Positions 15,217 to 61,881 of a stretch of 64,000 nt of DNA are shown here, one piece after another. A model generated the notes under the pieces. The model was not told where the DNA came from. It saw nothing but the letters and a program-made list of their open reading frames with translations, and searched no databases. A program made the position numbers and the translations under genes. Source of the stretch: Stichopus chloronotus (lineage: Eukaryota > Echinodermata > Holothuroidea > Aspidochirotida > Stichopodidae); assembly GCA_021234535.1 (NCBI GenBank), contig CM037838.1:26389969-26453968 (forward strand), in the 5' to 3' direction. The stretch's first letter is position 1; each line of letters opens with the position of its first letter.

Positions 15217-18200
15217 TCAGTCGTCGCACAATTGGTTAAAGTTCGAAATTGCTAACTGTAAATAGTACTTATATTCCTGGAGTAGGAAAAGACCACGTCG
15301 TTTCACACAAGTGACGTCACAAGATGCAAAAGTTACAGATGTCCCGGGTGATGACGGTGGGGTTATATTAAGCTGTTCGAACTGGAATACAAAGGAAGAA
15401 ATAAAAAGTATATATCATAAGCACAACATAAATGCTAGGAATCAAAGTAAAATCTGCAACGTTCGACAATGCTTTTGCTTTATATGCTATCAGTTATGAT
15501 CGTCATATTTAAGGTCGTCATGCCATTTCCTCAAAATGTCTCTCCTTTGTTAATGGAAAAGTTCATATTGTAGAATATGCCGACCACTATGTGGAATATG
15601 TGGGGGGTTTGGGGGGTTCTCAGTCGTGTTATGACTGCCCCAGCGACGGATTGTTGACACAGAGAGACGTCAGAACCGAGAATCCAGAGAAGGAGAGTTT
15701 CCTTTGATTTGATCAGAGTTCCATTTATTATTTGATGATTCGACTGGCACACATAAATCAATTTAAATTAGTTAACGATGATGATTGTAAGAGAGAAACG
15801 AAAGGACGGAGAAAGTTTACAATTACATTGGTAACACAGGCCTACATAATACACGGAGACGAACGATGTTCACACTTCGATACCCAGAGAGCCAGTGCCG
15901 GCGGCGTGGCGAGGTCGATGGATTGACCCACGCTAAACTGCTAAGGGTCACGGGATAGATTGCCGACACTGGCCAATCACAGGTCAAATGGTTTACCTAC
16001 GTAACTAAGTGAGGTGGTTGCCATCCGTGATTAACCAATCACGAAAGGATTGCGCAACCTTTCTGAGAACAGGGTCTAAGTTTAGTATTTTCTTGGTGTT
16101 TTGTCTAATCTGACTGTCTGAGGGAAATAAAGAAAAAGTTAAACAAATCTGGGGTAAACACCGGAAGACTGAACTTTGTACGACCTTTTGCGTACGGTGG
16201 GGTGGAATGACCATCTCTATACAACAATATGTTTCGAAAAACTGCAGTCCTCGTATGAAGAAAAAAATACAAGCTTGCTACTAATTGGTCATCTATGCAT
16301 ATACCGTACTCCATGGTCAATTACACCAATCGAGAAAGTGAATAGATTACCCAACGGTAGAGGTTACTACGGATAGAGGAGTAGAAAGGAGCCAGAGGAA
16401 AAGATTACGGGTACCCCATACCTGGAGCCTTTGATAAAAATTATCACTTCAAACTGTTGTGACTGAAGCCAAAAAGAGGCTCACAAGGGCTATTCTTGTA
16501 AAAGAAAAGTCTACCGTACCATCCCGTTTCCTCCCCTGACATCCTCTCCCATCCAAGTGAAAGTCACTGGTGTACCCCTGCACTGACCCTTGGAGAGAAG
16601 ATGTCGGAGGTTCGAGATGGCATTTCAACAATAAATGCTCCTTGTGTCAAGGGTGGGCAACCGTTTTGACTGAACGGGCCAGATACGACTGAGGAATGAA
16701 AAGATGTCCGGGGTTCACTTGACCAACGACCTGTTACTGATTTCAAACTTTTAACCCTGAGATCTTTCAAGCAATATAAACCTTAATTCACAAAATGTAA
16801 TCTCAATATAAAATTGTTGATAAGTAATTGGGAAATAATTGCCTACCTGCCAGCGTTCAATGAGAAGTTTGGCTCTAATGATTTTTTCTTTTTCTTGAGA
16901 AATCTCCCGCCCCCCCCCAAAAAAACGCTCCCCCCCCAAAAAAAAAGGAAGAAAAATTACTGACGGGCCTCAAGCTGCCCGCTGGCCGTAGGTTGCCCAC
17001 CGGTGTCTCATGAAATAGTCGGCATATTGAAGTCAAATTTGTTTTGATATTAGTTCACTTAAACTGTAACGAATACTTACAATAGTAGATAATTGGCGTT
17101 GCAAGAGATTAATCCCGTTGATCAAGTGTGAGTATCTGTTACTGTAGTTGGTGACCTCCCCCTGGCTGTGTAACCACGATTCGTCGTCGATTGCGAGAAG
17201 GAACGCTGCTGTGATCACCGTTAAGAATTGATGGTGCTTTAAAACCAAATCGTTAACATCGCTGATCTGACGAAAGACAGCATATTTATGACCGCATCGT
17301 GGTATACAACAACTATAGTATATCATAACTACATATCCTCTTCGTAAATATTATATAAATTTTTGCATTCTTCTTCCAATTACAACATATATTCTTCGGA
17401 CATATTGGGACGTACATTCGGACATATATATTCTGATATATATATTCGGACACATATTCTTCCAATTCGGACATATATTGGGACATGTATATTCGGACAT
17501 TTATATTCGGACATTGGTCTATGTTTATTCATGATATAATTTTAAAACAACAACTTGTATGTAAAATGGTCAATATTTGAGTGATCCTAATGAAAATTGT
17601 GGCAACTTTCATTTTTTTTTTCTAATGATCAATTCGGTCAATATTCCAATTTGTCGTGTCACTTCCCCTTTAAGAGATTGAAATAATTTCATCACTAGAT
17701 GACCGTCATCACTTTCACGTTCTGATTGCCAGATAACAACGACCAACAATGACAACAAGCTATTTGCAATGCAAGTTGAAACAAAACTTAAATATCTTTT
17801 AGATATCGTTCATTATAGGGTTTTCAACCATATCGTTGAAAACTTTCTATCCCCGGTGATTTTGTCATAATTTCTCATTTTATTTTATCAATGGTAAAAG
17901 TTATTATCATTCACATTAAGAGAGTTGATGATTAAATAAATAAATATATAAACAAACATACAAACCAGTATGAATTATGTGCTGGTTCACAGTAAGTGGA
18001 TCTTTTAACGAAAACACCCGAAGTATGTTAATGTCTTACCTCTGTTTCACGAAATGTCACGAAATAGTTTCCCACATCTAACCCGGACACAGACGTTACC
18101 GATGAGGGCAGTATGACGATGTCCTCGTTACCGAAACGACTAGATTTCTGAGATGAGACAAAGCGTGAACTTTACTTAAAGGGGTGGATGTAAGTTCAGT

Positions 18201-21200: not shown

Positions 21201-24200
21201 CTTTGAGGCTAACTTCAGTTTTCCACGCCACCCTTTTTTGTTTTCATTGTTCCGCCTTCAACAAATTACGTAATACGTAGAAAAACGTTCTAAAGCAACT
21301 ATCTTATGGGAAATGATTGTTGGTCAATAAACTTACTGAGCTTGCCACAAGTGATTAAATAATTAAAAGGGCTCGTTTTAATTTTCTACATTCTTCCAAC
21401 AATTATAAGTTATAGTTTGTCTTGCATCGCGTTTCTTCTATTACTCATGAAGTTATTTGAAGTTCTGAATTGTAATCTTAAAAATAAGTATAACCTGTTC
21501 GTAGGAGTAGGTTGGAGGAAAAAATAGAAACGAAAAAATACAGGATGCGTTCATCTCCGACGAATTAATTACTAAAAGTAGTTAATCTTCCTAACATTGT
21601 TCATTAGTTTTTCAGGAACAAACTTGATTATTCTTTTAATTTAATTAGTTATCTAACTATGTGTACTACACAGATTTGCCTTATTGAAATAAAGGAAAAG
21701 AATATATACAACGGTACACGCTGAATGCAGTTTCACTGTGTTTCCGGTGAACAGGAACATATTGGGGAAAATAAAAATTATATCAGAAATAAAAAGGAGT
21801 CTTATTTGTGCGACTTTATTTTTAACACTTACCATATCTTGGTAAAATCGCGTTGTTGATAGATTGCTACCCTGGATCCTTATCAGGGCGTTGCAATAGG
21901 CTGTCTTCAGAGCATCAGATTCTGTGGCCCAGAGTGGTCTTGGATTAATGAATAACACCACCGACATAATCAGCTGATGGACTGAAGGAAAAATAGCCAC
22001 ATCCCGTTTGCTTATGAGTTATTAAAAGCTCCATTCCCTTGTATTTTCTTTGTCACTATACCATGCATGGATAAATAGATAATGGGGCTTCGATAGACCC
22101 TAAAATACAATCTATTCGCAAGCTTATGTTGCCATCTCCAAATATCGTTTGAAAAATATCGAATTGACTCATTAAATGAGTCAGATACTCGCAAAGTTTG
22201 AAGCCACTCTTTGATATCTGGGAAATAGCAGTTTCTTTGCGATTGTATTTGTTTTTAAATGTCGTGCATATACCTAAAAATCTTTCATTTCCAAAGAGGT
22301 GGAAGATCAAAGTGTCCACCTACCTTGCTATAACGGAAAAAAGAAAGCCTATATAATTTTACATTCAACAAAAAGTCGGCCATCACTTGTCAGTCTAGTT
22401 CTGCGACATGCCTTCGTTGAGACTTTCCGGTGTTAGGCGACAATGTAAGAGAATTGGTCACATGACCTAATTAACTATTAATGCTCCATTCCCTTGTATC
22501 TTCTTTGTCACTAAAACAAGCATGGATAATTGGACAGTGGGGCTTCTGTGAACCCTACAATAGCGCTTTATAGGAGATCTCTACACATATTGTACCTTGA
22601 GAGCCGGTTAGCCCATATATTGTCAGAAACTTACTGCAGCTTACGTGTACAAGGTAATATATTGCCGCAGATTCATTGCTCATTTGAATAATAACATATC
22701 AGTTTCATGATACTCAAATAAGATAAAAAAAAGACCAGTTTTGGTCAGAATTTCCCTCACTTACGACCCATCTTTCGGAATCTTTCAGCATCGTTTTAAT
22801 TAATTAATTAATGGCCACAATTACTTATACAACCAGCCCATTGCACTTTTAAAACCAGGTTTGCCGTTTTACTTGGTCGGTCCATGAAATAATGTAACCA
22901 TTTTCATTTTTTTTTTTGCATCAGTCAATATATTGACTGTGGCACTCCTCTACATTCTCGACTATTTCAAGCTTTTTTTGTACTTTTAGTTTTCGATTAA
23001 TATCGTGCAAGCGGTAAATTTTTCCTGTCCGTTACCCCATCTATGGGCACTTTCACCAATTCTCGGAAATTAAAAAAAAAAAGTGTACGGAAGTTCCCAC
23101 GACACTTTGCATTTTAAAGGAGAATGAAAGTCAGAACGTTTTACAATAAAACATCATTGTCAAATGAAAGACTAACATGTGGTGATCACCCTCACCAAAT
23201 TTCATGTGCATATGTTGTTCACTTTTCAAGATATTGCAATTTAAAAGTTCAGAAAAATCAATCAGGATGCTGCCATGCTGAGATTGTGATGTTATAACCT
23301 GACCACTTGTTATTGAAAAGCTTTTGTTTTTCTTTATAATTTATTGACAAATACTTTTAACAGGTATGTATCTATTTAAATCAAAGTATGAATAATTTGA
23401 TCATTGCATGATACACCTCAGTAATTCAACACAAAGTTGTGTACAGTGTACATGCATTCATGGAAATTACGAGAAACGAAAACAAAGAAATACATTAAAC
23501 TCCTGCCATCAGGGGTTATGTGACATCATAGTTTGACTTACACAAGTCTGTTCACATTCAACTGAGACAAAGATGGCAACACCCTTCTCTAGATTTCAAA
23601 AGTGCGTAACTTGGGAAGGGAAGAATATTTTTTAATGAAACTTTGACAAGTGTTTTGTCAAACCCTTCTGCTTCATATTTTATAAAGATATTCCCAGGGT
23701 TTCATTCTCCTTTAAGGTTGAAATGTAAATTGAATTGCCGGATCAGATCACCCCTTTGGCTTGCACTACTACCCTGATCATTTAACTGGCATGGAGATCA
23801 GATCTTCCTAGTATCGGTCAAGCACGATCAAACTAAACAGATCTGATCCTGCCTTCTTACCGTAGTTAGTTCTGGTCAACACATATGTTTCATGGTCAAC
23901 CACTTTGTGTCAGCCCTGTTTTTGCCTCTCGATCGTTATAACACAACCACTTGAAGAAACACGTGTCGCATATTAGCCTAGCCTAAATGAACCTCTCTTA
24001 TTTGTTCACTTTTTTGTAAAGAATATTTTGTCTATTGGCGTTTTCATTTTGCATAATGCATAAAAAATGTGTTAATGCATGCAGATGTCATATTAGGTCA
24101 TATCAAACGATCATAGCCAACAATCTGACTCTATCGGAGCTCAGCTAAAAATGGTATGTAATGTAGGTATGAGACATTCACCACTGAAGAAAATGGATAT

Positions 24201-25767: not shown

Positions 25768-25870
25768 CTTTGATTTATCTCTTCAACTTAGTAATAGTCT
25801 GCAACGTCTTTGGGATTGAGCGATAAGATATCGAGGTATGGAGTGGTAGCCACCTTCTCACCTTCAGCCA

Positions 25871-25878: not shown

Positions 25879-28800
25879 AGCAGGGTTTTTTTGCTGAGCG
25901 CATCACTTTCCTCTTAAACAATTGATTTACTACAGCCGATACTGTGATCGATTGATGTGTATTTTTAAATTTCAAACAGAGCAAAATGGCATTTTTTTTT
26001 GCTTATAGCAGTTAAATTGAGATCGTGCCATTTTGGGTCACATCAATGAGGATTTTTCGGAAATGCAATCCAATCCACCCATTGTGGTTTGCGCGGTTAC
26101 CTATTTCCTTCGTTTAACAGTGCGGCATTCCCCCGTCTTCGATTACCTCACGTCGTTCAAACCAACGTGGATTGAGACAACTCCTCGTCCACACCGAAAC
26201 GTTTATATTTGTGAGAGGGTTAGTGGAAAGGCAAGAGTTGCCCATCCACTTCCATGGAACATTCCAAACCGTCTCATTTTAAAAAGTAAAACTTACAATA
26301 AAAGTATGGAAACATAGTTTTTACATGAACCACTCGTCACATTTTCTTAAGTTCACCATTTTATTGTCATATTCCCTTACAAGCTATAAACTGCTTCTAC
26401 AAACCTTCACATAATACGTTTTCTCTAAATGTAAAAGTATGACCACAGTGACCCCTCTTTTCAAGAGCGGAATTCGATTAAGATTTCACTTTGCTTGAAG
26501 TGGTTATTAACTCTAATTGAGTGAAAAATGTCACTCATAATATTATCAAACAATAATCACCCACTGACACATTAAAATAATTGCAAAAGTAAATTTCCAT
26601 TTTTAAAAAGATTTCTGCATGAAACTAACTTCAGACTGACAGAAATATACGACAGTCCAATATAGAACTCAAACATTCCATTCCTTTTTTTCCAGATCTG
26701 GCAAACCCCCTCCCCCACCACCACTATCACCTTAAAAAAGAAAACATCTCCAGTGAGCAAGTAAATAAGTTCACAATGTGCTCAATTACTATCTCTAACC
26801 AAGTAGGCAAAGGTACAATTTGTGTTCTGGTATGTGGCATAAGCAAACAACCCACGCATAGCGCAATAAAAGACCATTCACTTGATTTCATACGAACAAA
26901 GGAAAGATCTAAACAAATAAAACGAGCCAAAGCAAAATAGAATACTTGCATTTTAATACTGTTTATGACGTGAACGTCTAAATTCGTAAACCCTATAGAA
27001 AAGTATGTTGGAACGGCTGCGCCGACACCGTCATGCGAAACGGAACTGATTAGGCGTATTGAACGACTTTAAGAACAAGCATTCATCTAGAAATTTCTAC
27101 CAGGCTTTACAACAGGAATACAGTCACCTGGCCAATTTAGATTATTGAGGGGTGCACGGGGACAGACAAAGCGGCGTCTCCTGTCCTCCCCACCCCTACC
27201 CTTCCCGTTGATGGTTGACCTGCAGAGAGGAAGAAAGAAAGAAACGTTAACAGGACAGACAATGTTACGAGTAATTTCGTGATTTAATTTTCCAAGTCTG
27301 AACTTACTTTCAAATCATGTAGGCCTATTCACGTTACTCAGTTCTCATTTTTTTTTTATTGCAAGCAGTTCGAAGGTTCGGAATGCATGCCAAAATTTTT
27401 TACTAGATCTGTAAAATAGTGGACAATGAAACGATCGTTTGCTATCGTGCCTTGTACGGTAAAGCGTAGTACTTTGGTTGTAGCAGATTTTCCAAGTTTC
27501 AGTTTTTCATTTTGCCGCATTTTGATCCTCACAAGGAACCACGTGAATCACGCCCTCAACCACGAATGAGTTGTTACTCATTTCAACATATTTCCGCTTT
27601 TAGATAAATCATGTGTGCACCAGCTTGTATATTTGAATGATCTACGAATTACCTCACAAATGGCACTCTGTTTGTGGTCACGAAAATTAGACCACGTTGT
27701 ATTAATGAAAAGATTCTGTGAAAGACCTAAAAAATAATGACTTCAAATGATAGTTACTATTCATTTCCATTGTAATTGTGATCTTCATACACTCATCGAA
27801 TGAAGTCAGAATACGAACCTACGCTCTAGAACCTTTAGAGTGGAAAATCGCTCTGTTAGAATGACACTAGTGATGACTCTTTATTTGGAGTGAAAAATTC
27901 TAGTCATTATCACTCCTTTTAGCGTGAATATTCAGTTTTACTTCGGAGTCATCCATAATGTCACTTTTTGAAATTTAGACAATGCAATGTGCTTGACATG
28001 CCAGGTTATCACATAAAGGAGTTTTTTTTTTTTTTGTCCTGTCGTACATTGACTTTAAAGTGACCGTTAATCAGTATTCGAAACGATAGAAATAATGTAC
28101 TTAAAAAAGGGAGATTGCAAGTTTTTTTTTCTTCACTTCTGGAGTTGGTCTGGCTCAATAGTAAAATGGGGATACAGTTACATTGAAGATATCATTAGTA
28201 CAAATTGGGAAACATCTGTCAACCTTCTTGAGTCAAGGAGATACCATACCAGGAGATCGTCGACATGAAGACATCAGAGGCATAAGTCATGTTTGTCAGG
28301 CTTTATGATTTTTTTTTTCAACATCCACTGATAATGACCTTGAACAGGAGAACTTTTGTACTTGCACCACGTATTGTTGAACTATATGACTGTGGGTCTT
28401 GGAAATGAAACCCTCCCTCCAAGAAATATCGACAAAGGTGGTGGATTGATGAGTATGATGTTGTCTATACTACTCTAGCTAACGGTACAAAACATAGTAA
28501 AAGACTGTGCAATGTCAGGTCTAGAATTTGCATATATTCTTGGGATTTAATGTTACTCTTCTCCACTGAGAAGTCGGAGCACTTATTATTGCATTCTTCA
28601 TTTAGCACCCCTTAATAAAAGCATTATGCAGGTTTGGTCTTAAAACTGTTCATCAGAACTGCTGCATTTGTTTTCAGATAAGAAAAAAATCATACTTTTT
28701 AAGCAAATGTTTAAAGACACAGAATGATTGATTGTCCAAACTAGGACAGAGCAGTAGACTTTTTCCGTTTAAGGAAGCAGGTATCTCACAAAAATCAGTT

Positions 28801-34500: not shown

Positions 34501-34518
34501 TTACGTTGGTAGTGTGTG

Positions 34519-37654: not shown

Positions 37655-40600
37655 ATGGCATCTTACAATAACCGTAAGTACATTTTACCCCATTTTTTTC
37701 TCTTTCGTTATCTCATGCATTGGTGATTGATTTTACTATTTTAATTGACCAACAAAAGTTTAGCACCAACTCTCTAGCAGTCTCAATGAGATGACGAGCT
37801 GACCTGATTCGTTACGACAAAGGAATAACACCACTAGTTTCGCTCAGAATACACATGTCACTAGGACCTGTAGGCATGGACACGTCCACAGCGGCCCCCA
37901 CCAAAAGAAAACTATTAAGAGTGTATGTTACATGTTCCGGTGGGCATGCCTCTACACTTATTTCTATTTGAGATCCCCTCCCCAGAAATTTGACCTGGCC
38001 ACAGACCTGGCCTAATTTAAAGAGGACGCAAAGACTTCACTAGGGTGCTCCCACAATACAGTAGTCGAAAGTGAGAAAGCAATGCGTGGAAGCCCAATTT
38101 GTACAAGACGGCTATAGATTATGACCAAAATATGTATGCTACAGCATCGGGAAACTTGTCTCTAGCCTATACCGTACTCATTCATAGCTATTACATGCTG
38201 CCCATTAAGCTATTACGTGCTGCAAATTATTGCCAGTACAGCTGATATGTAACTTTCTACCACCTTTAATTCAAAGAAATCTTGTGAATGTGCAGAAATT
38301 TACTGATGTTCTTATCTTCTCAATTTCCTTCGATTTGGTAACTCTCAATGAAGTTTCACGATACGGTTATCAACTACCAAAGATTTCCAGTTTTATCTGT
38401 CAAATCGATAAAAAAAATAAATGGTCCCTGCTCATAATTTACAATTGAGCTACAAACTGCCCGTGTGTGGACCTCTCATTTTAGATTTTCATCGACACAC
38501 ACACACACACATATATATATGTATATTTATATCAAGTATAGGTTCGTACATGAGGGTGATATTTTGTCAAGGAACGCTAGTAGATGCATTTCTATGGCGT
38601 ATGGGTTGGATTCTTCAATGGCAACAGATATTTCTTAATATTACTTCCATCTCGGTATATCTATCTCTCTATAACTTGATACAGCTATTTGGTCTATAGC
38701 ACAATATTACCTATACGAAGTGTTTTCATTAGTTTGACTTTTGTTAGATTGTCGAATATCAGTAAATATAGTTAGTGTATACGTCGGGTTACCTTGGTAT
38801 CCGATCCAAGGTTCGTTCCACAAACTTATACTGTGCGTGTGACAAAATTCAGCACTTACTTAACTAAGAACAAGTTCATTTGGTATGTCGGTTACATACT
38901 ACAAGTTACATCATTTTACAAGTTTCATCAATGAACAAATCCAAAATCTCGTATTCGACAAAGAACTGGAAATTTAACCGAAATAATACTTTCGCAAACC
39001 GTGGTTACCCTACCGACAATGTACATCGGTTACCCGAGTCCGAATTTGTACCTGGTGCAAACTCTAATGTTGTATGAGTTGTTCTGAGCCCCTGTCTGCA
39101 TGAGACAGAGCAAAGTTCAGATTTGAGAGAAAAAAAATACACTTTTGTTTAAAAAAAAGGGAACTTTAACAGTTGCACCTTTCTCATTTGTCTATGGATG
39201 GGGCAACTACGATTATATACTAAACCAAAAGCTGCAATGCCCTTTAAAGAGGCTCATTGAGTTGTTTTGTGAAATTCACTCCTGTCAAGTTTCCTTCGAA
39301 TACTAACGGCAAATGGCCAAACTAAGAGGATGCCAATGTTTTACATACAATGGAACATTAAATGAGTGAGAATAATTAACGATTTATTTTTTTCCTTGAA
39401 AATTCGTGAACAGACACTTCATATTAGTACTGTGTTCACATGTTCATAACTAGTAACAAGTAACAATAAAAAAAATAATAAAAAATTCTGACAGCTATAA
39501 CTATTGCGTCCGAAACTTGACTAATTAAGCTGAAAGTGAAACTTTTTATGGTTATTGTAAGTATTGTCATGTATTTATACCCTTCAAAATCACTACAATC
39601 TTCATTGATATCAACTCAATGAGCCCCTTTAAGCCCTAAGTAACAAGTGGATGTATGCACTCTTCTCTAATTGGGCTTAAGGTGAGTGAAATGTAATCTA
39701 ACGGACAGATACTTTCATCAAAAGACAAAAGATTTAAATAGAGAGATTACAACTGACCAAGATTACAAATTAGCCATTTGTACAGTTGATACTCCCTCCC
39801 CCCCCCCCTCCCATGAATAAATAGCTAAAAGTGAGGGAAAACATCAACAAGAAAGTTATTGATTCAGAATTCCACAGTCATAGATATGCATGCTATTTGT
39901 TGTGGTAATATACATATTTTTTTATGTTATAGATAAACCGGCATTCTACTGTATTGGTGTTGTGTTGGCCCTGTTTTTGACTTTACCGGAGTGTATTTCT
40001 TCAACTCATGTAAGGTCTTATAGGATGATCCTTATTCGGTTCACATCACTACACTTAAAAATAGACGAACTGAGGAAGGAAGCAGTGAGTATATCTCCGG
40101 ATATTTACCATACCTGGATAGCTGTCTGTATCTCCACCAAAACACCCAATCGAAATGGTCGATTTTTGTATTTGTGTGTGTGTGTGGTTTCCTCCTTCTG
40201 TTCTTGATTTCATCGACTGCAGTGTTTGAGCATACACTTAATTTACTTTGATGATCCATGTAACTATTTCAGTCGTGACCGGACAATTTTCCCCAAACAA
40301 TTCCTCCCCTCCCCCCTTAAAAAAAAAAATACTCCTCGGAAAACCTCCCACGAGCAGATCCCAACCAAATAAATTCCACCTCAAACAACTCCAAATGGCA
40401 GTTCCTTCGGGAAATGGGTTATAGGTTTAAGGAAAGAGTTAGGAGATTTGTCGGGGGGGGGGGGGTATTGTCGGGAGAGGCGCAGTGGCAGCATCAAGTG
40501 GGGAGGGCACAAGGGTATCCCCCCGTCAGATCCCCTCGACAGCAGACTTTGCCTCTAGACCCCATAACGGGTCGTAAGCTTCATATTTGGAGTATACTAT

Positions 40601-43600
40601 CCTGAGACTTAATTTTTCACCCAGATATTTTGCAAAAAAAAAACCACTCCTCGGGGCTTTGCCCATGGATCCCATAATGGGGGGTCCGAAGTTCTCATCT
40701 TGTCAACTTAGAAGAGAGGACTAGCCGAAATAATTACAACCGTTTGGAATCTTTTGGTATAATGACGCACTTTGAACAAAAATATACCTATCCTGAAATT
40801 CAATTTTTGGCCCAGAGATATGTTAAAACCTCAGAGTTTCCAGGGGGACTTCGCCCCCTGGACCCCCACCGGGGATTTGCACTTTGACCCCTAAGATGGA
40901 CCTCTGGACTCTACTTGCTCAGCACGCACTTCGTGATCGATTTCGCGCTACTCGAGAAATTATTGCCCCCCCCCAGCTAACAATTTCTTTTGCTCTCCAT
41001 CCCCCCCCCCCACAATCTAAAGTTCTGATGCCGCCACTTGCGAGGAAGGGAATTGACACCATTTCAATAGCTCAGCGTCCGAAAAACATCTGACGGAGTA
41101 CTCGAAAATGGTATAGAGGGGTGTGAAAATGTACAGGCTTAATAACCAGGCTTGTAGCTACGCTGGGCGACCCATCAGACACACAAAGCAACTTTAAAAC
41201 TCCCTCTCTCTCACGAAAATTGAATAAAAACATATTTTAAGGGAAGCTTCTTATCTATCCTTGTACAATCGCAACAGCTAAGATGCTTTGGTTAGAGGAC
41301 AAGTACATGAATTTCTAAATTGTTAGACAATGACTATGGGCAATACATCCATTATGCATATATCCCAAATACCCGATTCACGTTTCAATCGTTACCAAAA
41401 GGTAAAATAAATTGCTCATTTTTACAGTTATGCCCGATATTTGTTTAGTTACGAAAAAAAAAATGTCAAATGTTTTGGAAGATTCCACATATGTCCGATC
41501 CCATATGTTCAGTTTGAAAATAGAAGGTTAGACGTGAATACGTGCAATCTGATCTGCGGCTAAGTGACAGTGGTTAGTAATTAATTCGGTAATTAAATTA
41601 TTAAATACCGACTATCATGGCATCCCGTTGAGATAGTTCGAAGGCATATGACATTATGACATTACTAGCTGTCTTCACGAAAACAATAGATTCAGACTCT
41701 TCGATGCGACGAAAGTTCGAGGCTTTTCGATTCGAAGCTAGTTGAAGGCAAGAACGTAATTCTAAGCACACCTTTCTAGAATAGACCTGATGTGCATATT
41801 CAAGTACCTTAACAATTATTTCATGATAGTATGTGACTTAAAATGTACCAAAGTGTGTAGCAGGCCACAACCAGAGAGGATAGGCTAATCACTACCCAGC
41901 TGCTTATAGTGATATTGTAGTGCTTGGCAACCACAACTGTTTCAAGGAGTCCGCCCTGTAGAACATTACCTTGTTCCCTGGGTTAGCATAATGTATCTAA
42001 TGTCAGGTTGTTTCAGGTTAGCGCCAGCGGCATGATGCATTTCATGTAGCAATAAAGGACAGATCCATGACTAATTTGGGACTGTAAACTTGCGGATACT
42101 TTGCCCAACGGAAATTAGCACAGAGACGACAAACCTGTTTCATTTGGATCTTTCATATTATATGATGGAAAAAAAAAATAAGTACCAGCTTTGGAGAAAA
42201 GTTTGACCACAAAATGCTTTCAGTCTGCCAACTAAAATCACTTGCTTTCTTTGAGATAATATAACAGCCTATAGATGAATACAGTGTCAGGAATTCATTC
42301 AAATTCCCATCATCAAAGTTCTTACATAGAAACAAAATATGTATAATCATCGCATAATTGGGGAGACATACCATTTTCTTCATCGCGATCGGTCGTTATT
42401 ACTACAGTATTGCTACTGTAGCTCTTTCAAAAGTAAAATATTTTCACTGTATCGATACAGTAAGCGTATCGATAAATCCACACCTGCATATAGAACAAAG
42501 GGCCCTCAAGTTGCAGGACATTTGGTGGCTCGCTCGTTTGTTTATTTTTTTGGAGGGGGGTGGGGTGGATACACAAGGCAACATTACAACATATATGTGC
42601 GATATCATTTTGTCAAAGGAACTGAGTATTTCGATGTAGTGTTACTTTGTCAGGCAAAGGTCACTCATCAAGCGGAGGTATAGAATGGACTGCTTCGTGA
42701 TTGAAGGTCGTCATTCCGAATATTGTTGAAAGCGAAGGAAACATTTCAACAGACCGCTAAATAAAAACTAAATGGGCTATTGAAGACTTTACTTTTGGCA
42801 CAATTTTTGTAAGAAATTAACGTTAATATAGTTCTATGGTCACAGGCAATCCACTGAGATCACAGTCGTCCGACTTCATCATGTTTGCTCTACCACCGTC
42901 TTAGGCTCTCCTGTTCTGTTCTGTTCTGTTTTTTTTTTTTTTTTCTCGGAGCAGTCTCTCGTGGTAACCGGTGATGAAGATTCAGTGAATCTCAGGTCAT
43001 CCATCTCGCCGATCGCTTGTATGAATGAAATCTTTGATGAGGTCAACAACGTTTTCAACATACAACAGGTAACTATGAAGCGCACATTGATTTGATAGCA
43101 ATGAAATTTGAGAGGGTTTGAAGTGTGCATCAGTATCGTTAAGTATTATATCCAATAGTTACGAATTTTCAAAAATCCAACGGCACCTCTTCTGCACCCC
43201 CCCCCCCCACCCTTCCTTGTAAATATAGCATACGTCAGTCAAACGTCCGTAGGCTGTTCATTTGTACATATATTTTGACGGGCGTTATTGGCGGGCACGG
43301 CAGCCTTGAAAAGTGCCACGCCCTTATGTATGGTCGTTGGATGCTTATTTTCAGGACACGTGATCCAATCTAACACCTAGCCTAGCCGCTAACTTTTAAC
43401 ATGGCCCACTTGGTTTAATTTTAAGCCAAACAATAATTTTAGCGCAACCGAGTCGTGTTTCGTATGAAAGGGACTACGGTGGGAATAACCACAGCGCACT
43501 TTAATCAACCAGCCGACACACCTACGCTTGCGTCCCTTCCAGATCGGTAACAAAACAGCACTACTGATTGGACATCTCCGATATCTTAACGCCTACAAGG

Positions 43601-44607
43601 ACGTTCTCACAATGATGTATGAAGCCACAGGGACCGCCTCTGGTGAAGACTCCGCCTTCCAGTCTGACTTCAAGGTCACGTTAACGGCGGTCATTCAAAG
43701 AACTACAGGGATAATATCTGGGATTTCTAATTTGGTAAATACGATTTTAGTCTTAACTCTCGAGGTAACAAACAAACAAACACCTTCTTCTCCACATAAT
43801 AAACCACTTCCTTAGATTTAAACCCTACCAAGAAGCCCTAACAGATCAATGGAGGTACTTCGTCCACCTTCATTCTATTGCTAGTTTCCCCGTTATTGTC
43901 AAAGTTTGATTGTATACTTCGAAGGCAATAACAATTAGAATTATTATACTATAAACGCAGTCGCCAGGCAACCACAAAAACAATCCTTAATGTGAATCGC
44001 CATGTTCTATTCGTTCATTGTTTCTTGTTCAAAAAGGAAGCTCGAGCTGTTTCCTCGAAATATGCCAGTGTTACATCAAATAACGTAATTGATGTTTGGT
44101 ACGGGAAATCTGTCAAGTTGAAATAATTTTACTTTAGAAGAAAGACTCTCAGTGTACAACAGTAAGTAAAGAAATCCTGTATGACGTCATAGATGGACCT
44201 ATTCCAAGATTGAGCCGTGCTAAGTAGGGGCCGCTACTGATGCGTCTGGTCTGGTTTTGTTTTACTTAACATTTAATGAAAAAAATTACCAAAACTTAAA
44301 TATGAATTTTGGAATTGAAAGTCTCTCTCGTGCAAAAACACACACCAATCCTAGAAAAGGGTAATATACTTGCAGATTTTCTATTTCCTTTTCTTTTCTT
44401 CTTTGTATTTTATGTCATTCTCATTTACAGATTGCTTCAATAGGAAAACCTGTACTGTCATCCTCTCTGGCACTGGTAAACCTCACAAATTGTGATGTCG
44501 AAACATTGATTAGTAGGCAAGGTCTCTTCCTTTTACAGGAGTTTGACTATTACACCAGATTGGCCCGCTTAAACTTTTTAAGACTAGCAGAAAGGGCCTC
44601 AGGGTGA
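37655..44607 (+). CDS. Putative secreted four-helix cytokine-like protein, gene A
   Basis: Coding exons: 37655-37673, 39933-40084, 42955-43068, 43543-43734, 44037-44084, 44431-44607 (stop TGA 44605-44607); 702 nt, 233 residues. Intron 1 is phase 1, the other four phase 0. Exon 1 encodes MASYNN plus one base; exon 2 completes a signal peptide (core CIGVVLALFLTLP) and starts a helix. Exon 3 (38 residues) holds ACMNEIFDEV. Exon 4 (64 residues) is helical and aligns with those of B and C. Exon 5 is a 16-residue mini-exon (EARAVSSKYASVTSNN) with a weak AAAAAG acceptor. Exon 6 carries NLTNCDV, then GLFLLQEFDYYTRLARL, the proposed last helix. Possible N-glycosylation at NKT and NLT. It is the most diverged of the three and lacks the second Cys of the CDVTC motif. 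Function as a cytokine is inferred. Confidence 0.72.
39248..39628. mobile_element. TTAA-flanked MITE, family 4, in intron 1 of gene A
   Basis: TTAA flanks at 39244-39247 and 39629-39632. Termini are AGAGGCTCATTGAGTTG and the complement of AGGGGCTCATTGAGTTG, 16 of 17 matching. The element is 381 bp long and non-coding. Confidence 0.8.
40430..41050. repeat. Repeat cluster with diverged 200-bp units and C/G tracts, intron 2 of gene A
   Basis: Three related segments carry CCTGAGACTTAATTTTTCACCC or CCTGAAATTCAATTTTTGGCCC-like starts (first 20 bases conserved in part), a stretch ending AAAACC, then CTCGGGGCTTTGCCC or GGGGGACTTCGCCCC and a CCCATAA- or CCCCCAC-type tail. Poly-G at 40454-40465 and poly-C at 40967 and 41001 sit inside it. 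The layout suggests nested or tandem copies of one element. Confidence 0.55.
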
Positions 44608-52369: not shown

Positions 52370-55300
52370 ATGCAATTATTCAATCACGGTAAGGCAAATC
52401 TCCATTTTTTTGTTTCTAATGCCCTTATGACTTTGTGTTAATGTTCATCGTGACATATTTCTTGCATTTTTTGCTAAAACATCTGTGTTGTAGTTAAGCA
52501 CTATTATACGTCCCTACGCTTAAGCACTCCATAAATGCCCCCTCCCCTACTTCCATGTGTTAGCGTTGTTATCCACATTTTGCAAAGAACATTTTGAGAA
52601 CATTATGACTTTTCCTTCTGTTTACACGTAATTTTGTGTATTTTGCCCGAATCAAACAATTTGTTCAACATGTACATTTAAGTACTTATTTACTGTTCAC
52701 CGATACCCCGACCTCCACCCCAACAGTGGTTTAACGCTGTTTAGATGTCTGTATGGATTGATCGCTATTAAAGCATTAACACAGCTGTCTTGATGTTGTT
52801 TATCAAACATAGCAACTTCACACTATATGAAAAATTTCATTGATTTATCATTTTGTCGTATCGAAAATATCGATTTGTTGCAGATATATGCAAAAACTAT
52901 ATGATTGCCAATTAACCGAGTTGCGATTTTTCTCCACAAGTTGTTTGATTTACAAACTATTACCGATAAATCCGCAAATATTGACGTAAAGATCCTTGAG
53001 GTTTTTGCTGCAATTCAAATATAGATTATAGATAGAGAAGTTCTCACTTACGTCATCGTCTCCTTTTCTTGATCGGGGTTGTTGCCCCAGTTTTCGATTG
53101 AATATGATATTGTGCAATATCTGAAAAAGATATTCTCTCCTACTTGACCCCTTTCTTTCTCAACGGCCCTTTCCTCTCCCAACCCTTAACCACCCTTACC
53201 CCCCCCCCCCTTCTCTGCATGCATTAGGAATGACATCAGGCGGCTATTCGAATGAAGGTTGCGTTGTGCTTCAAAGTGTCCTGGCTGCAGTCATCTCATT
53301 AAAGTAAGTAAGAAAATGAGGTCCTCGAGAAAATAAAAAAATAACGCGAAGTTTTCGAACACCATGATTTTTTTTATCAGCAAAAGACATGGAAGGGGGA
53401 TGCAGAGGGCCATATTTTCATTGAACAAAATGCCCGGGAAGGTTGATAACACTTTTGTGGTTCTCAGTTTACAGCTGGTAAACTATAGCGTATTAGATGG
53501 AAGTGATTTCAAAATCACCCAATCCGTATAGTTTTTTTTTTTTTTTTTTGTGCTGGGATTTGTGTCTCAAGACTTGTATATCATATTTGACGTACAGACC
53601 TGACAACGTTAGGTGATGGGCAGAGGCATTAAGAAAGGGTAGAGGATATAAATCTTGAAGACTTGTCAAACTTCATCATATCATTATGGATTGGGTGCTT
53701 AAAATGGTTCAAAATAGTCAGGGCTTTGGTCTTTGGGCTTAGGGATTTGGTAGGAAAGCTGCCAACGTTGTGACCATAAAGTAGATAATAGAGAAGCACT
53801 TTCGGCGGTAGGATCGGGGACCGTTGCAATTGATGTAAGTCGGACCCTATCCGCAGAATCTAGTGCTTTGGATGATGCGTTTCATATATTGCAAGAGCCA
53901 AATCCCGTAATATGTCATCAATATGCGTAGTAACTTAAATGTCTATGAAAATGTTTCACTGTTTCATCAGTTTGACGAAAGGCAGTTTTGCAAACAAATT
54001 TTATTTTCTTCTCACGTATAACCCTTTTTGGCTGTGTATAAAATGTTTAGAGGAAAATGCTAAAGTAAGCCCATTTTTAGTGAACAATACCAGAAATACA
54101 TGTAAAGGTAAAGTGTGTATCATAAATGTATGGAAAATAGGGCTTGTTATTCCGATGTGCATACACACTTACACACGCACACCCGAACACCCATACACAT
54201 GAACACACACTGACCTTGTACGTACAGTCGTTTCTCTGTTTTGTGTCTCCATAAACTAATCTGATCGTCATTTAACAGTTAATCTTCCTAATCCTCAATA
54301 GGGTCTAAATTGTCCGGTTTCATTGGCGCGATGGTGTTAGCTGCAAGCATAACTCCAGATGCCCAAGTGCGAGCAGCAAATGTCAGAAACTCCTACGTCC
54401 AAGCTTTCCAAAGGGCAAGGATACTTCATCACATAGAAGCTAATCTTTACTACAGTGTGGTAAGTGAAATTGTTTTCATTATGGCCAACATTCCTAGTAT
54501 CGAGGACAAGCTGGCATACCCGGATTCAGGCTATACCGGAGATTACCACCTCTCTTAACTGTAAATCTGTTTTTTTTTTCTTTCTCTTTCTCTCTCTCAT
54601 GACCTACAAGAACCGTAAAAGTAAACTAGCAGATTTAGAGGTGGCACCACCCCATCCGTACCCATCCCTCTCTTACCTTAAACCAATTTACCTGTATAGG
54701 GCCTACATCTACCTACCTACACACTTATCTGCCTCTTTTTACCTACCGACTTATCTACTACAGTATCTGCCACATACTTTCCTACTTTTAAACCCACTTA
54801 CATACCCATCTACATATGATTCAACTACCTTTTTAAATACCTACCTACCCATATCTCCATGCATAGCAGCCACACCCAAGGAGTGATTACCCATGTTGAA
54901 CATTCTTCACAGCACATTTTTGGTAGAGAATAGTTGTAAACAGTCCAAAAACGTGGATTCAACTAAAACGTCACCTCACCCTGGTCTGACCTTTATAAAG
55001 TCAGCTGAAATTTTAAAATGAACCTATTCAACCACAATCTGTGAGTTTGCCCATCTTTATTAAGAGGACAGGAAGAACAAGGCTGAAGATTGTTTTTCGA
55101 AGAACAAATCCGTTCGTTCACGGTTCCCTAGTTTTGACAATTGTTATATCACCTCGTTGTCGTTTATTGATTTCACCAAGCCCGCTTCGTCAACTTGCCA
55201 CACGGTGTGTGCAAGTGCTGAGGTCAGGGTATTCCCCGGCTACGATTTCGGGGTCACTTGGATGTTTACAAACGGAATCCTATTGGTTCTGTTCAAATAT

Positions 55301-58300
55301 GGCTGAGTGGGAATAGCCGATGCGGTGACTAACGGCGTCTGCGGTTTGTTGTTCGCTGTTATTGACAAGCAACACCCACATTTCTAGGACACTCTACAGG
55401 TCTTGGTGTCGCGTTATTCTGACGATTCGGCAATTTTTGCGAGTAAGATCATGAAAAGACGATGAAAGGCGTGCACGCGCTTCTGTGGATGGTACCTCAA
55501 TAGCTTGACACTACAGTTCTAACAATTGCTTCAAACCGAACAGTAGTAACATGTTTGTTTACATTTTTCAGACCAGAAGTCGACAATTCTCTTCTGTGAT
55601 ATCGGCAGGCGTAACTTTTTAAACCCACTAAAAAAACAAAGCGGTCCAAAAAATAAGTTCCCCAGTATATTGATATGCGAGGGGGGGGGGGATGTAAACA
55701 ATTCACACGAACACGTTCGGGGGAAGAGACACTTCTTTTTACGATACCAAGCTTCCCATAGAATAAACACTAAACCGTACAATCAATGCTGAGATTGAAA
55801 CCTGCCATTTATCATAACATTTAATGAGGAAAAAATTGATCAAAATGGGAGAATGTGACGCAAATCCGTCTTCTTTCTTTTTTATTTCTTTCCCTCTTTT
55901 TCTTTTTCTTTGACTGTCCGTTTGCTTATATCAAGTGCCTTTCTTCCGGATGACTTCTAGCAGAAAACTGTTTTGTGTGTGTGTGTGTGTTTTTGTCTGT
56001 GTGTGTGTGTGTTTTTTTTTTTTTTTGTCGGATTGAACACTATGATATTTTTGGGCCCAATAATGAATTCCCAACAATGATGGAATCGAGTTCAACTGTA
56101 TGATGTAGGCTATGTGAACTAAATATGTATATAAACAAAAGTGGTGAGGACAGTGTGGACGAGTTTGGGGATGCTTCGTTGAGTAAGATGAATCTCTCGC
56201 CGTGGTCGTCTCTCTCCACATCTCTCTCCACCTTTCCTTCTCTCCCTTTTCCTTTTGATAATGAACTTGAAATGATGAACATGTCCGCTTCTCTTTTTTT
56301 TTCATTTGTGTTAACATAACACAGCAGCGGCTCTCAAACCTGTTTAGACTGCCGTAATTGTCATGGACCCCCAAAACCGTGCCACCACCCCTCAATTATT
56401 CGCTATGTACTCTGTACTCACCTGAGACTCCCGTGTCAGGGGAAGACGGTACAGCACTGAAGTACAACAATGTACTACAATGTACTTTTTTTTCTATCAC
56501 TTTATTTCCTCTCCCTTTTTTTTTTTGTCATTTGAATTTCCTCAGAAATCTAAACGTTTTGCAAATGACGATATTGTTATCCACCCCTCGGAGGTGACAA
56601 CTGTATCGGGGAAGGAACACTTCCCGGACTTTTACCGAACTTTCCGTAGAGCTAATGTAAGTATAGATCAAAGAATCTAGTTCTTTGGTATAGATGTAAT
56701 TGTCATGACGAAACCTAAGTCCGACTCCCCCCCCCAGACGTATCCCCTCCCTGTTCTCTTTTAGTTCTCCCAACAACGTCTTCCTTTCTATGTTACATTA
56801 TTTAAGTCTCTTTCTGAAAATGTGTAGGTTCATAAAATGTCTTTGATAGTAATACAACAGAGGATAGATGGTGCTTCATATTACTGTATCCACTGCATGG
56901 GCCTTTCCATCTCTTGCAATTCACAGCCTATCCACCTCTCTCCACCTCTCTCCACCTCTCGCTACCTCATTCTTTTTTCATTGCGGCCTCCTGATAACTT
57001 GATAGATTTATCTTGTGTCTGAAAATCATGAAGTGATGTGTTTTGATTAGGTAAAGAACCTGACATTAACTCAAACTTATAGTCCACTTGCATTTTTTGC
57101 CTTGCTTGAAAATTATATTTTTTGTAAACGAATTAGAAAAAGCAAATTGATGTAGCCATTAAAGACACTGACTCATCGTCTCAAAAAGTTTCAATTCAAC
57201 CAACCACTTACTTCTAACCCTCCCATAGCCTGTCTAAACTCCTACACATGTGTAATCAAAATAGCCGGCGCCTGTGCATGTTTTGTAATATTTGTTGTCA
57301 AAATAACAGCAGAACCAATTGAGACTTTTGCTTACCCCTTGCAAAAAATGTAGCTGAGAGGTGATGGGAGAGACTGCCTTTAAATAGGTGTGTAGCCTAA
57401 AAAGATAGTATTTACTGCATAACCCGGAACATGTATTACACATTGGCGTGTTATCCAAAATACTCAGACAATGTTTGGGTCTAATACAAACAGAAATTCA
57501 AGTGGTAACGAAAGATCCGATGTACGAGTTAGTAAAGTAATTCCAGGACCAAAATAATTTGACTTAGCCAAGTCACCATAATTTTATAGTTAAAATATAG
57601 GGGTAATGGTGAGACATACAAACAGAACGGAAGTAATTTCTTGTAGCCTAAACTGTTAAAAAGAACTTGAATGAAAGAAAATTCAAACAACGGAAAACCG
57701 ATAAGAATCTAAGGAAAAGGTGCAAAGAAAATCTCAGAACATTAATAGCCCCAAAATTATATTAATAGTTCAGTTAAAGATAAATGAAAATGGAACTGTA
57801 ATCTAACTCCAACTTACCATTTGTCAATCATTATCAGACACTTTTTGTTTCACTTTTCTTTTTTGTGATTGATTTATCATTCATGTTTTTTACTAATTTC
57901 GTTAATATTAAGGTATATATCCTTGCCAATTCATGCTAACGATTATAAAACAATGTATACTTTCAAGAATACCTTAAAAATATTTTATTGTGATGTGTCA
58001 ATGACAAAAGTCCTCTATTTTGTGTGTATCTGTTCACTTTCCGTCTTTTGGTTTTTACTAGATATAAATACGAATTTCTTGTTTTGTGGTGGGGTAGCAA
58101 CCTAAAAAAGCAGTTCTTGAAAAGCTTTTGTTATCACTGGCCAACTCTTTTATTTCGGCAGTTTCGTAACAATATTGAAATTCATTTGCATTCTCGAAAA
58201 GAGATTGAAATGAAACAACTCGACTGAGCGACCAACATGAAACATCGCCCCCAATTAGCGTACAAAGTGTCGGCCCGCACAAAGGACGTGTTTCTCAACT

Positions 58301-61300
58301 GTTTCTCAACTAACTGTGACTTTTCTGTGACAGTTGCAGTGGTTGATTGGGCGCGAGAGAGGGGCGGTGATGGCATGCCTCTCCTTAGCTTTGCAGCAGG
58401 AATGTTTTTCGTTAAAGACCATCAATGTCTACGTGCAGAGTCCAGGTAAACATTGAAAATCTTCGACCAAACAATAGTCAGTATTGAAGAAGTGGAAGGG
58501 GGGGGGGGGGTAAAACACATACTCATGAGTATTATCTAACGGGCATCAACATGACAAAAATTAAAAAACAAAATAACGGTTTTTCTCTCCATTGGGCACT
58601 TTCTAACATAATTAGTTATTGACAGAACATTTTTTTACCATAAATCTGTTAATAGATATGCTTCTATACACGATTTGGAGAAAGAAAGTGCAAAAAGTTA
58701 TGTAAGATGTATTTCACAAGTACCTATGCTCCTTCAATGTTATGACCAACTAACGTCCTCTCAAAAATGACCCCTCATAGCAACACCACCCTTCCTGGCA
58801 ACACCACCCTTCCTAAAGGGTAGTACTAATACTGTTTTTTTTTTTCAGTAGCCTTAATATTAAAAAAAATAAATACTTCTAACGAATTTAAATCATAAAG
58901 GAATACTGTTTCGTTAAATCAAGTGAATTATTCAATTTTTCATTCATTTCTGTCGAGTGGCAATGGCCGCGGCCATTTTCGTCCCTAATTACCCCTAGTC
59001 CAACGTGAAAGTGACGTCAGAGACAAACCTCTGTGCGAACAGTCCCTATGTGCACATCACACAAATTAACAGACGACTTGTTTTAAACCCCCTTTTTTAA
59101 AAAATTCTCACTGTTGATTTCTGCATTAAGCTGGGGAATGTGATGGAAAGTAATCAAGACATCAAGGCCTCTTACGAACCAAGTGCATATTGCTTTAAAC
59201 CTGCAAAATCGCGAAGAAATTCTGTGGGGGCCTATTCTTGGAATGTTGGGTGCAACAACCAGGGAGCTGCATTTCAGGAGGAGATAAATCAGAAAGTTTA
59301 AGCTAGAGTCTAACTATATTAGATTTTCGTGTGTGTTATGAGACTTTGAATTAACAATCGGAGATTAATGTTTAAGGGGCCATTGACCTTTGTGTGACAT
59401 GTCCAATTCCTAAGATTGGCTGTAGTCGGTATCAGAGTAATGTTTATTCATGGCTACTTTATACCCTATGAATAGGATTACGTAGACGAAGATTCGCCAT
59501 CAATCAACTGACGTTTGGTTTTCCTTCTGGAAGTGCGCCATCTTACACGGCGATAATAGCGGTGAATTTGAAATCTGTATCTCGTTTGAAAATTTCAATA
59601 TTCAAAGCAACACCGTGATAATAGTTTATGTATTTATGCGTTAATATGCATATTACCTGAGTCGAAATAGCAACTGCTGCTTCCCTTTATTGTAATGACC
59701 ACATCCCAACACCTCGTCACCATCGTTGTAATGTAACTACCGCCACGGTATCGTCTTTTTCATCACGAACCCATGCAGATATCGAATGTGTGTCAAACCA
59801 TTCTGAGGCATGCCGAATTCTCACTCATGATGAAAGAGGCGATTGAACTTGCTTACTACGACGAACTGTGGCTAAAAAGTCGCACAGACGACGCAACCAC
59901 TTTTCGTAGGCAATTTTTGGCGGTTCGGCGAGAACTGAATCTTCATCAAGCACGTCTGTCCACAATTGTAAGTAAATAATCGATATACAAACTAAACAAA
60001 CACAAAATCAAGATTTTCCAGGATGGGACATTGGTGGATCTGTGGGAGTTCTTGTTTAGTTTGTTATCGAGTTTTTTTTTTTCTTTTCTTTTCGTATTAT
60101 TATGACTTCATTTGTTTATTCCTTTTGTTATAACTAATTTGACAATCAATAGCCTATGTCAAATTCCACCACTTGTGACGATTAAAGCTAACAACCACAA
60201 TGGCTCTAGATATTCAATTAAAAATAAAACAAATCAATAAAAAAGTAAAATACCAGTGGTGAATCCAGGACTTGGCAGAAGTGGGGGAGGGGGGGGGGGC
60301 ATAAGGATGATGGCTGATCGCCCTCCTACGACAGGGCTCAAAGGTGTGTCAATTTCCCTTTGGAAAATTTTCGCTAACATAGGGTGGGCTATATTCAAAG
60401 AGGTGATACATTTTATTGATGCTAGATTTGCAATGAAGATATCTTCAGGAATTCTTACTTTTTAAGTAATGATTTTATTTCCTCCCATTTGGAAATTTAT
60501 TTCTAACATAGACATACATTTCATGCCAGATTTAAATTGCATATATCTCCAGGAATTCCTTTTCTCAGCGATGGTTTTATTTTTTCATCTTCCTTGGTGA
60601 TTCTAGCATTCTTAAACCCTCCCAGAGCATTACTTTGTCTTCTTCGTAATAGGACATTACTTTTTCTTTCTTTTTTTTTTCAACTGGCACATCCTCCGCA
60701 TCCCATCATACAATCCTGCCCAGGTCACATTGATATAGAGAGGGTCGCGATTTTAGCCCCCAGTTTGCCTCTTACTGCGCGAACGTCGTATGTATGAGCA
60801 TTCATGTAGGATACATGAACTGAATTTATTGAGTGAAAAACAAACTTGTAAACGGACTATATATTGCTTATCATGTATCAGAAGGGATCAATAAAGCCAT
60901 ACAGTTTGAGGCAAAATAGCGCCCCTGCATAACCAGTTGTCGTAACCCTTTCTGTACACGAACCATAAGGACTATCTATTCGAAGCGCCACCGTCGGTTT
61001 GCGGGGAGCGAACGAGAAAATTTGGTTTTTCAATCAGCGCTTTTGGGTGTTGCATCCATACAGTCTTGAAACATAGACCTCATGTTTGCAATTTCTTAAA
61101 TGAACGAGAGCAAAAGTTAGTCTATGAAAAGACTACTACCTATCATATGGGTTGAGATGATGCAAGAATCATAAACTATATAGCCTCTTTCAAATATTCT
61201 TGGAGCACATAGCAAATATTTGATTGGGGATAAGCATCTTTAAACCCACACTGTTTTCATTGATTAATGGAGTCACATTGATTGTTTGCAGATTGATTGA

Positions 61301-61881
61301 CTGTTTACATTGGTTATTTGCTGCAAAATTTAAATATTAAATTTCGTTAAGTGACTCGAAAATTTCCCACCTTGTACTTTCATAAAGTGGATATTAAAAG
61401 ATCCACTGAAGCGCTCATTTAAAGTTGTCAATGAACCCAATACCTAAGGTATGCAGGAGATGTGAAGTGAAGAATTAAGATAGAAAAACTGAAATAGCGT
61501 TCTCTTAGCCCCCCCCTCCCCACCCTCCTCAACTCAATTTGACAATACATTTGACCAATGTATTTTAAATATAAAATCTTGTATATGTGTCTCTACTTTA
61601 TTTGTTTGCATTGTATAGATATTACACACGAATTCGAACTTTGTATCTAACGCTGTAAGGTGAGTCTACTTGCCTTCAATTTTATCTTCTTTTCTCTCTG
61701 ACCACACCAGATGGATCAATTGGAAATTACATTCGACCCTGCTTCAGTGAATCACGTGACTTTTGCCATTTGTGACGTAACCTGCGTCCAGCGAAGAAGT
61801 TTGTTCATACTGCAGGAGCTACACCACTACACGCAACTGCTGCTTATCAATTTTTATATTTTGGTCAGTGTGGAATACTAA
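52370..61881 (+). CDS. Putative secreted four-helix cytokine-like protein, gene B
   Basis: Coding exons: 52370-52388, 54302-54459, 56546-56656, 59779-59967, 61619-61654, 61711-61881 (stop TAA 61879-61881); 684 nt, 227 residues. Phases are 1,0,0,0,0 as in gene A, and exon 1 is again 19 coding bases (MQLFNH plus one). Exon 2 supplies a signal peptide core GFIGAMVLAASI and a helix (AQVRAANVRNSYVQAFQRAR). Exon 3, 37 residues, begins KSKRFANDDIVIHPSEV. Exon 4, 63 residues, runs ISNVCQ to ARLSTI. Exon 5, 12 residues, is ILHTNSNFVSNA. Exon 6 has ICDVTCVQRRSLFILQE, then HHYTQLL. A glycosylation sequon NIS spans the exon 3/4 junction. It is clearly closer to gene C than to A although C is on the other strand. 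No TATA box was seen above exon 1. The cytokine role is inferred. Confidence 0.76.
54660..54860. repeat. Degenerate CTAC/TACC-rich microsatellite, intron 2 of gene B
   Basis: CTACCTACCTACA, CTTACATACCCATCTACAT and similar runs recur across about 200 bp on the plus strand. The open frame through it is a product of the tetranucleotide pattern. Confidence 0.6.
55970..56031. repeat. TG microsatellite followed by poly-T
   Basis: Two TG runs (about 55974-55990 and 55998-56011) are separated by TTTTTGTC and end in a run of T. It lies in intron 2 of gene B. Confidence 0.8.
58390..58740 (+). repeat. Dispersed repeat, copy 2 (pair with 4905-5215)
   Basis: It matches the CDC73 intron 8 copy in order, including GACCAAACAATAGT and GTTATGTAAGATGTATTTCACAA (20-base core compared). 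A G tract at 58498-58510 is inserted relative to the other copy. It lies in intron 3 of gene B. Confidence 0.65.

Follow-up and report, generated by a model that had tools for sequence, protein, structure and literature searches.

Four clustered sea cucumber genes with a gene plan resembling that of long-chain class I cytokines

The sequence analysed here, referred to as the window, is a 64,000-nt stretch of the Stichopus chloronotus genome (GCA_021234535.1, CM037838.1:26,389,969-26,453,968); feature positions are given in window numbering. It contains three five-exon candidate cytokine genes, A (37655-44607, plus strand), B (52370-61881, plus strand) and C (26315-15217, minus strand). The preliminary description of the window placed these three genes on the same strands and at the same positions, and all three stand as it gave them. 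A fourth paralogue, D (68928-76338, minus strand), is new; it lies outside the window, 5 kb beyond its end. The gene order along the chromosome is CDC73 (minus), C (minus), A (plus), B (plus), D (minus).

The gene models were built by splice rules. After conceptual splicing, all 16 modelled introns are GT-AG, and the five-exon plan with intron phases 1-0-0-0 is found in all four genes; the common exon order and phases described earlier for A, B and C are therefore borne out. The predicted proteins span 208-217 residues (A 217, B 215, C 208). Coding exon lengths, stop codon included, are 19/152/114/192/177 bases in A, 19/158/111/189/171 in B, 19/149/108/186/165 in C and 19/164/105/189/174 in D. 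Exon 1 contributes 19 coding bases in each gene; exons 3, 4 and 5 encode 35-38, 62-64 and 54-58 residues, respectively.

Exon 1 is located at 37655..37673 in A and 52370..52388 in B, with a TATA-like box 144 and 168 bases upstream of the ATG, respectively; such a box is also present upstream of D, and none was found for C. Exon 2, which would encode the remaining signal peptide and the helix A region, is located at 39933..40084 in A, 54302..54459 in B and 21833..21981 in C (minus), where it has AG/GT borders and runs from phase 1 to phase 0. Exon 3, at the AB-loop position, is found at 42955..43068 in A (38 residues; a splice-rule model), 56546..56656 in B (37 residues) and 18040..18147 in C (minus; 36 residues). 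Exon 4, with predicted helices B and C, is located at 43543..43734 in A (64 residues), 59779..59967 in B (63 residues) and 17081..17266 in C (minus; 62 residues), in agreement with the 62-64 residues described earlier for the helical exons. Exon 5 ends with the stop codon and would encode the CD loop and helix D; it lies at 44431..44607 in A, 61711..61881 in B and 15217..15381 in C (minus), where it includes CDVTC. Exons 1-5 of D, also on the minus strand, are located at 76338-76320, 75133-74970, 70987-70883, 70030-69842 and 69101-68928.

The first exon of C is putative: the ATG exon at 26297..26315 (minus), which ends in phase 1 at a GTAAGT donor, is one of 40 candidate exons and was chosen for its 19-base length and this donor. 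Exon 1 of D is one of two candidates; length played no part in that choice. The 120 kb, counted on its two strands, holds four open 19-base ATG exons followed by GTAAGT; A, C and D account for three of them. A possible additional exon of B near 58340 was weighed by eye but ruled out by phase.

In tblastn comparisons over 120 kb, exon 5 links all pairs of paralogues (E 9e-11 for B/C, 1e-6 for A/C, 1e-5 for D/B, 2e-5 for D/C, 2e-4 for A/B and 4e-4 for A/D). B and C are also joined by exon 3 (E 9e-6) and exon 4 (E 4e-6), and exon 4 of A and D is weakly linked (E 0.005). There is no match between paralogues for exon 2, and exons 3 and 4 of A find nothing better than E 1.6 against B or C; for these exons, the likeness therefore rests on position, length and phase. 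Two earlier observations hold: only short blocks align, and the last exons of A, B and C all carry C-D-V plus LF[LI]LQE. Identity is 37% between B and C and 22-26% in the remaining five pairs. Such low identity (22-37%) is as expected of fast-evolving immune ligands.

Chance open reading frames or decayed gene copies would be another explanation of A-D. It is exceedingly improbable: there are four collinear exon sets with matching splice sites and open frames, and the third codon position is the most variable in all six paralogue pairs. In addition, a D-helix pattern, which was defined after the genes had been inspected, has four occurrences, one in each gene, when the 120 kb is translated in six frames; the mean in 20 mononucleotide shuffles is 0.05. 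Synonymous divergence (dS) is saturated in five of the six pairs, so no ratio of nonsynonymous to synonymous divergence (dN/dS) is claimed. Genome searches with B, A and D as queries returned only the C10 cluster and a single C21 match at E 0.19. This match is judged unrelated, although this is not proven; in the 3.3 kb read there, the aligned frame has an internal stop, crosses the exon borders of D and has no match to A, B or C.

A hydrophobic 11-mer in the first 35 residues has a mean hydropathy of 2.87 in A (IGVVLALFLTL, in exon 2), 2.35 in B, 2.16 in C and 3.36 in D. Further along, B and C have a stretch that is equally or more hydrophobic (2.36 and 2.54, respectively). The N-terminal hydrophobic stretch appears clear in A and D and weaker in B and C.

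AlphaFold2 models were made for exons 4 and 5, each as a single exon. Exon 4 of A, modelled with an alignment consisting of exon 4 of B and C, is predicted to form a 30-residue helix at 2-31 and a 27-residue helix at 37-63, joined by a five-residue turn; the predicted local distance difference test score (pLDDT) is 82.7 for the best of five models and 62.6-67.9 for the other four. Exon 5 of A is predicted to form 22 loop residues followed by one helix (23-57), with a mean pLDDT of 76.0 and block means of 87-96 from residue 31 onward. Taken with exon 3 as the AB loop, the two models make the AB and CD connections long and the BC connection short; the predicted order of segments is candidate helix A, long AB loop, B, short turn, C, long CD loop, D. 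Long-chain class I cytokines are connected in the same way; here the order is drawn from the single-exon models of exons 4 and 5 joined to exons 2 and 3, and the packed fold itself is presumptive. The earlier view of A, B and C as secreted helical proteins with signal peptides thus holds in pieces: the single exons are modelled as helical, and the N-terminal stretch is as uneven as described above.

Phases 1-0-0-0 are typical of five-exon long-chain class I cytokine genes (IL6, CSF3, EPO, GH); the human IL6, human EPO and carp G-CSF genes have five exons, as do A-D. IL6 and CSF3 are also divided among exons in the manner proposed for A-D: signal peptide and helix A, AB loop, helices B and C, CD loop and helix D. 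Exon 1 of IL6 has 19 coding bases and its exon 3 encodes 38 residues, both as in gene A. Human EPO exon 3 comprises nucleotides 160-246 (87 bases), and both its borders are in phase 0 if counted from the ATG. An aromatic residue at exon 4 position 14 is found in IL6, CSF3 and all four paralogues; unlike these, EPO and GH do not have it. Exon 4 is longer in A-D (62-64 residues, compared with 49 in IL6/CSF3), and IL6 and CSF3 give no sequence-level match to A-D. On the whole, A-D are probably divergent long-chain class I-like cytokines: four clustered sea cucumber paralogues whose small protein products are secreted and helical. Presumptive parts of this reading are helix A, the packed fold, the receptor, the function and common descent with the class I cytokines of vertebrates.

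A four-member A-D profile was compared with a panel of 20 proteins, of which 12 are long-chain class I cytokines and eight are controls. In one-by-one hhalign comparisons, CLCF1 scores best (22.8) and CNTF is next (18.4); for each, none of 200 column permutations reaches the observed score. IL-2 and IL-4 score 11.7 and 12.9, and the non-cytokine controls 10.9-13.3. The combined CNTF+CLCF1 profile scores 27.8, which is also reached by none of 200 column permutations (maximum 21.8); its alignment pairs columns 107-184 with 104-181 and can be read as running from helix C to helix D in register. With CTF1 included, the score is 29.4 (reversed 12.8). The other combined profiles score 20.9 for all twelve (reversed 13.1), 14.7 for IL6+GCSF (13.1), 13.1 for LIF+OSM (22.9) and 11.6 for growth hormone and prolactin, GH+PRL (12.7); the control sets score 11.3 for IL-10/IFNA2/IL-2/IL-4 (13.2) and 11.7 for the non-cytokine proteins (10.8).

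In an ungapped D-helix scan of these 20 proteins, CLCF1 (17.0, column-shuffle p 0.012) and CNTF (15.8, p 0.018) are first and second; these p-values are uncorrected for 20 proteins, and the two proteins are related to each other. The third best score is 9.0, for EPO at a non-D site; IL-10, IFNA2, IL-2 and IL-4 all score 3.2 or less. The D helix is the best site in five of the 12 class I proteins (CNTF, CLCF1, G-CSF, OSM and IL-11), with unremarkable scores in OSM and IL-11. In an anchored test, exons were aligned ungapped on the exon borders of IL6, CSF3, EPO and GH in six comparisons; agreement is seen at the end of exon 2 (p 0.013) and the start of exon 5 (p 0.004). Together, the profile, D-helix and anchored tests give moderate, not decisive, support for common descent.

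CNTF and CLCF1 are thus the top profile and D-helix match of the panel, with helix C to helix D nearly gap-free. They have in common with A-D the pattern [LM][QK]E[LFY]..[YW], followed seven residues on by [ND][FL], in register. CNTF and CLCF1 have fewer exons than A-D. A-D lack the cysteine pairs that belong to the PROSITE IL6/G-CSF signature.

A number of results weigh against the cytokine reading. No cytokine match was found in Pfam, PDB or a 5.8-billion protein set; a genome-wide search with PF00489 at E<=10 gave no match either, which is weak evidence as control genomes likewise gave none. The hhalign probabilities are low (4.5% for CLCF1, 16% for CNTF+CLCF1, 22% with CTF1). IL-10 and IFNA2 score 15.6 each, above the remaining ten of the 12 class I proteins (10.7-14.9), and several class I alignments (e.g. 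IL6, prolactin) pair non-equivalent helices. The best reversed control one by one is OSM at 20.2, and the reversed profile reaches 24.7 against CNTF+CLCF1 and the 22.9 already given against LIF+OSM. For seven of the 12 class I proteins, the D-helix scan places its best site outside the D helix. The anchored test fails for exon 3 (start p 0.95, end p 0.35) and is weak for exon 4 (start p 0.055, end p 0.15), where a 3-position shift does better at the start. Helix amphipathicity reaches p<0.05 in one of 16 segments and p<0.08 in four of 16. No receptor was found when the genome was searched with PF09240 and with a gp130 segment. A single cysteine, that of C-D in exon 5, is invariant in A-D. Finally, A-D lack FXXK at the start of helix D, the motif by which CNTF, CLCF1, LIF and OSM meet LIFR at site 3 (PMC10022904, in excerpt): T is at the F position in all four, and K three residues on is found only in C (TLIS in A, TCVQ in B, TCVK in C and TCAT in D, versus FEKK in CNTF and FLQK in CLCF1). 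Because FXXK is absent and the cysteines differ, the predicted A-D proteins are placed neither in the LIFR-ligand group nor in Pfam IL6.

A second cysteine is found 4-7 residues after C-D in B, C and D; A has C79 (exon 3) instead. The partner of the lone invariant cysteine may vary between paralogues, or this cysteine may link two chains.

The Pfam IL6 model PF00489 does not match A-D. In the protein-set search, there was no relative among the 1012 candidates gathered for A alone, nor among the 4653 gathered for the A-B-C profile. The set includes echinoderm proteins, as seen in the CDC73 search; its candidates were gathered by shared 5-residue words, so absence in other echinoderms is not shown. 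Human CNTF itself retrieves no other cytokine from PDB at E<=10; sequence search between families therefore has little power. Several weak matches are judged spurious: Pfam Luteo_coat (0.048), Prefoldin (0.049) and GrpE (0.23), all under curated cut-offs; PDCD10 in PDB (0.43); and an isoleucine 2-epimerase (1.4). The match of the exon 5 profile to Crov588 (E 0.0044), a repeat protein, is likewise judged spurious: it is made up of 11 weak stretches, and no single stretch passes. The earlier assignment to the long-chain class I is favoured by the architecture of the genes, by the lengths of the loops and by the helix C to helix D profile match with CNTF/CLCF1, but sequence searches find no known cytokine.

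A holothurian-specific family of secreted helical proteins, unrelated to cytokines, could have arrived separately at a similar look with phase-0 introns. The lack of a homologue for A or the A-B-C profile would fit such a family, as would the low hhalign probabilities, the nearly as high reversed profile and the generic Foldseek result for the exon 4 model (none of 244 matches at E<=0.001). It is nevertheless rather unlikely, since exon count, phases, placement of helices in exons and loop lengths all agree with the long-chain class I, features which are not all independent, and since CLCF1 and CNTF rank first and second of 20 in the D-helix match.

A-D might instead belong to the class II cytokines (IL-10/IFN-lambda type) or to the short-chain members of class I. 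The profile scores of IL-10 and IFNA2 exceed those of the non-cytokine controls and of ten of the class I proteins. In IFNL2/3, too, the first coding exon is short, and the phase-1 intron after it is followed by phase-zero introns (PMC2654155, in excerpt). However, the same excerpt gives the IL-10 family and IFNL genes four phase-zero introns, whereas A-D have one phase-1 and then three phase-0 introns. IL-10 and IFNA2 also remain below CNTF and CLCF1 in the one-by-one comparison; in the D-helix scan these two, IL-2 and IL-4 do not exceed the 3.2 given above, and their joint profile (11.3) does not exceed the non-cytokine one (11.7). This assignment is accordingly quite improbable.

Class I cytokines work as secreted four-helix ligands which join receptors and activate JAK/STAT. 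If A-D are such cytokines, the signal peptide would be cleaved from each; exon 2 would supply helix A, exon 3 the long AB crossover, exon 4 helices B and C, and exon 5 the CD crossover and helix D. The helices would pack as an up-up-down-down bundle, the faces of which would draw receptor chains together, and the JAK/STAT pathway would signal in coelomocytes or other tissue.

In the receptor searches, PF09240 gave four genome matches, all below cut-off and all containing stops. The gp130 segment gave 53 matches (best E 0.0016), 12 of which were taken as loci. A WSXWS-like scan of loci L015-L036 found a single occurrence; the frame around it, 1315 residues long, has fn3 domains and a P-loop-like GATGAGKTT and is not taken for a receptor. 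This stop-free frame, at L046:2814-6761 (G000:C10, minus), joins a WSSWS-bearing fn3 pair to the GATGAGKTT stretch. Seven of the other 11 loci were read and contain ordinary-looking fn3 domains. Dense fn3 matches to the gp130 segment at G000:C20:12759111-12808833 (L027, L031, L034-L036) are probably ordinary fn3 tandem proteins. A genome search with STAT_bind found nothing, which mainly shows that the method is weak for intron-split genes.

Counts of ATTTA, as 3' AU-rich elements, are not above expectation in any of the four genes. Upstream NF-kB, STAT and AP-1 sites are few by bare count.

Excerpts of earlier surveys report that IL6-superfamily members could not be located in invertebrates (PMC8226699), that IL6 is found in vertebrates only (PMC13203501), and that type-I helical genes are present in amphioxus, with none detected in acorn worms or sea squirts (PMC9010856). 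As far as these excerpts go, genes with an IL-6/growth-hormone type plan have not been found in echinoderms. PMC7161275, on coelomocyte cytokines of Holothuria leucospilota, leaves IL-6, gp130 and cytokine receptor unmentioned. No echinoderm class I cytokine gene is reported in the titles and abstract openings surveyed, a scope from which subscription journals mostly fall out. A Strongylocentrotus IL6R is placed in the receptor tree of PMC13203501, in excerpt; echinoderms would therefore have receptors without known ligands. The BLAST survey in the same excerpt required at least 30% identity, and would miss such genes because five of the six paralogue pairs are only 22-26% identical. A cluster with the right gene plan provides named, testable ligand candidates for echinoderms.

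Three invertebrate systems can be compared with A-D. The amphioxus GH-like protein (GHl) is also from an invertebrate deuterostome, a chordate; it is type-I helical, has 208 residues and shows low identity to vertebrate members (PMC9010856, in excerpt), and is likened to A-D by description only. The same applies to the insect Unpaired (Upd) proteins of Drosophila, ligands of Domeless; Unpaired-3 is named an IL6-like ligand in the JAK/STAT pathway in an excerpt of PMC8226699. In that excerpt, an echinoderm factor from the starfish Asterias forbesi is also cited and described as IL-6-like (Beck and Habicht 1996). It is possible, though doubtful, that A-D descend from an ancestral long-chain class I gene, that the 1-0-0-0 ligand and its receptor predate the echinoderm-chordate split, and that a related echinoderm gene lies behind the 1996 starfish IL-6-like activity.

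The CDC73 (parafibromin) gene neighbouring C is located at 3505..11419 on the minus strand; this is the span of its open reading frame pieces. A rough version of the CDC73 protein encoded in the window was used as a query and has 806 homologues at E<=0.001. Among the best 120 of the 806, the top match is 78% identical, followed by Holothuria leucospilota (69%), the nearest named relative, and then by Amphiura, Asterias and Patiria (57-54%). Judged by these matches, the CDC73 in the window is that of an echinoderm and most like a sea cucumber's, as fits the earlier inference of an invertebrate source. A search for COX1, meant for typing the species, found nothing. The genome comprises 719 Mb, and the contig that carries the window is 32.3 Mb long.

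Three repeat arrays are present in the window. In the gap between C and A, at 31214-31509, a 26-base unit is repeated in tandem 11.1 times. Between A and B, at 46592-47206, there are dense diverged palindromic units on TTCCACTTAAGTGGAA with a 21-base period; this array looks like a small satellite or foldback element. A 50-base unit is present in 3.2 copies at 650-808, inside the first kilobase.

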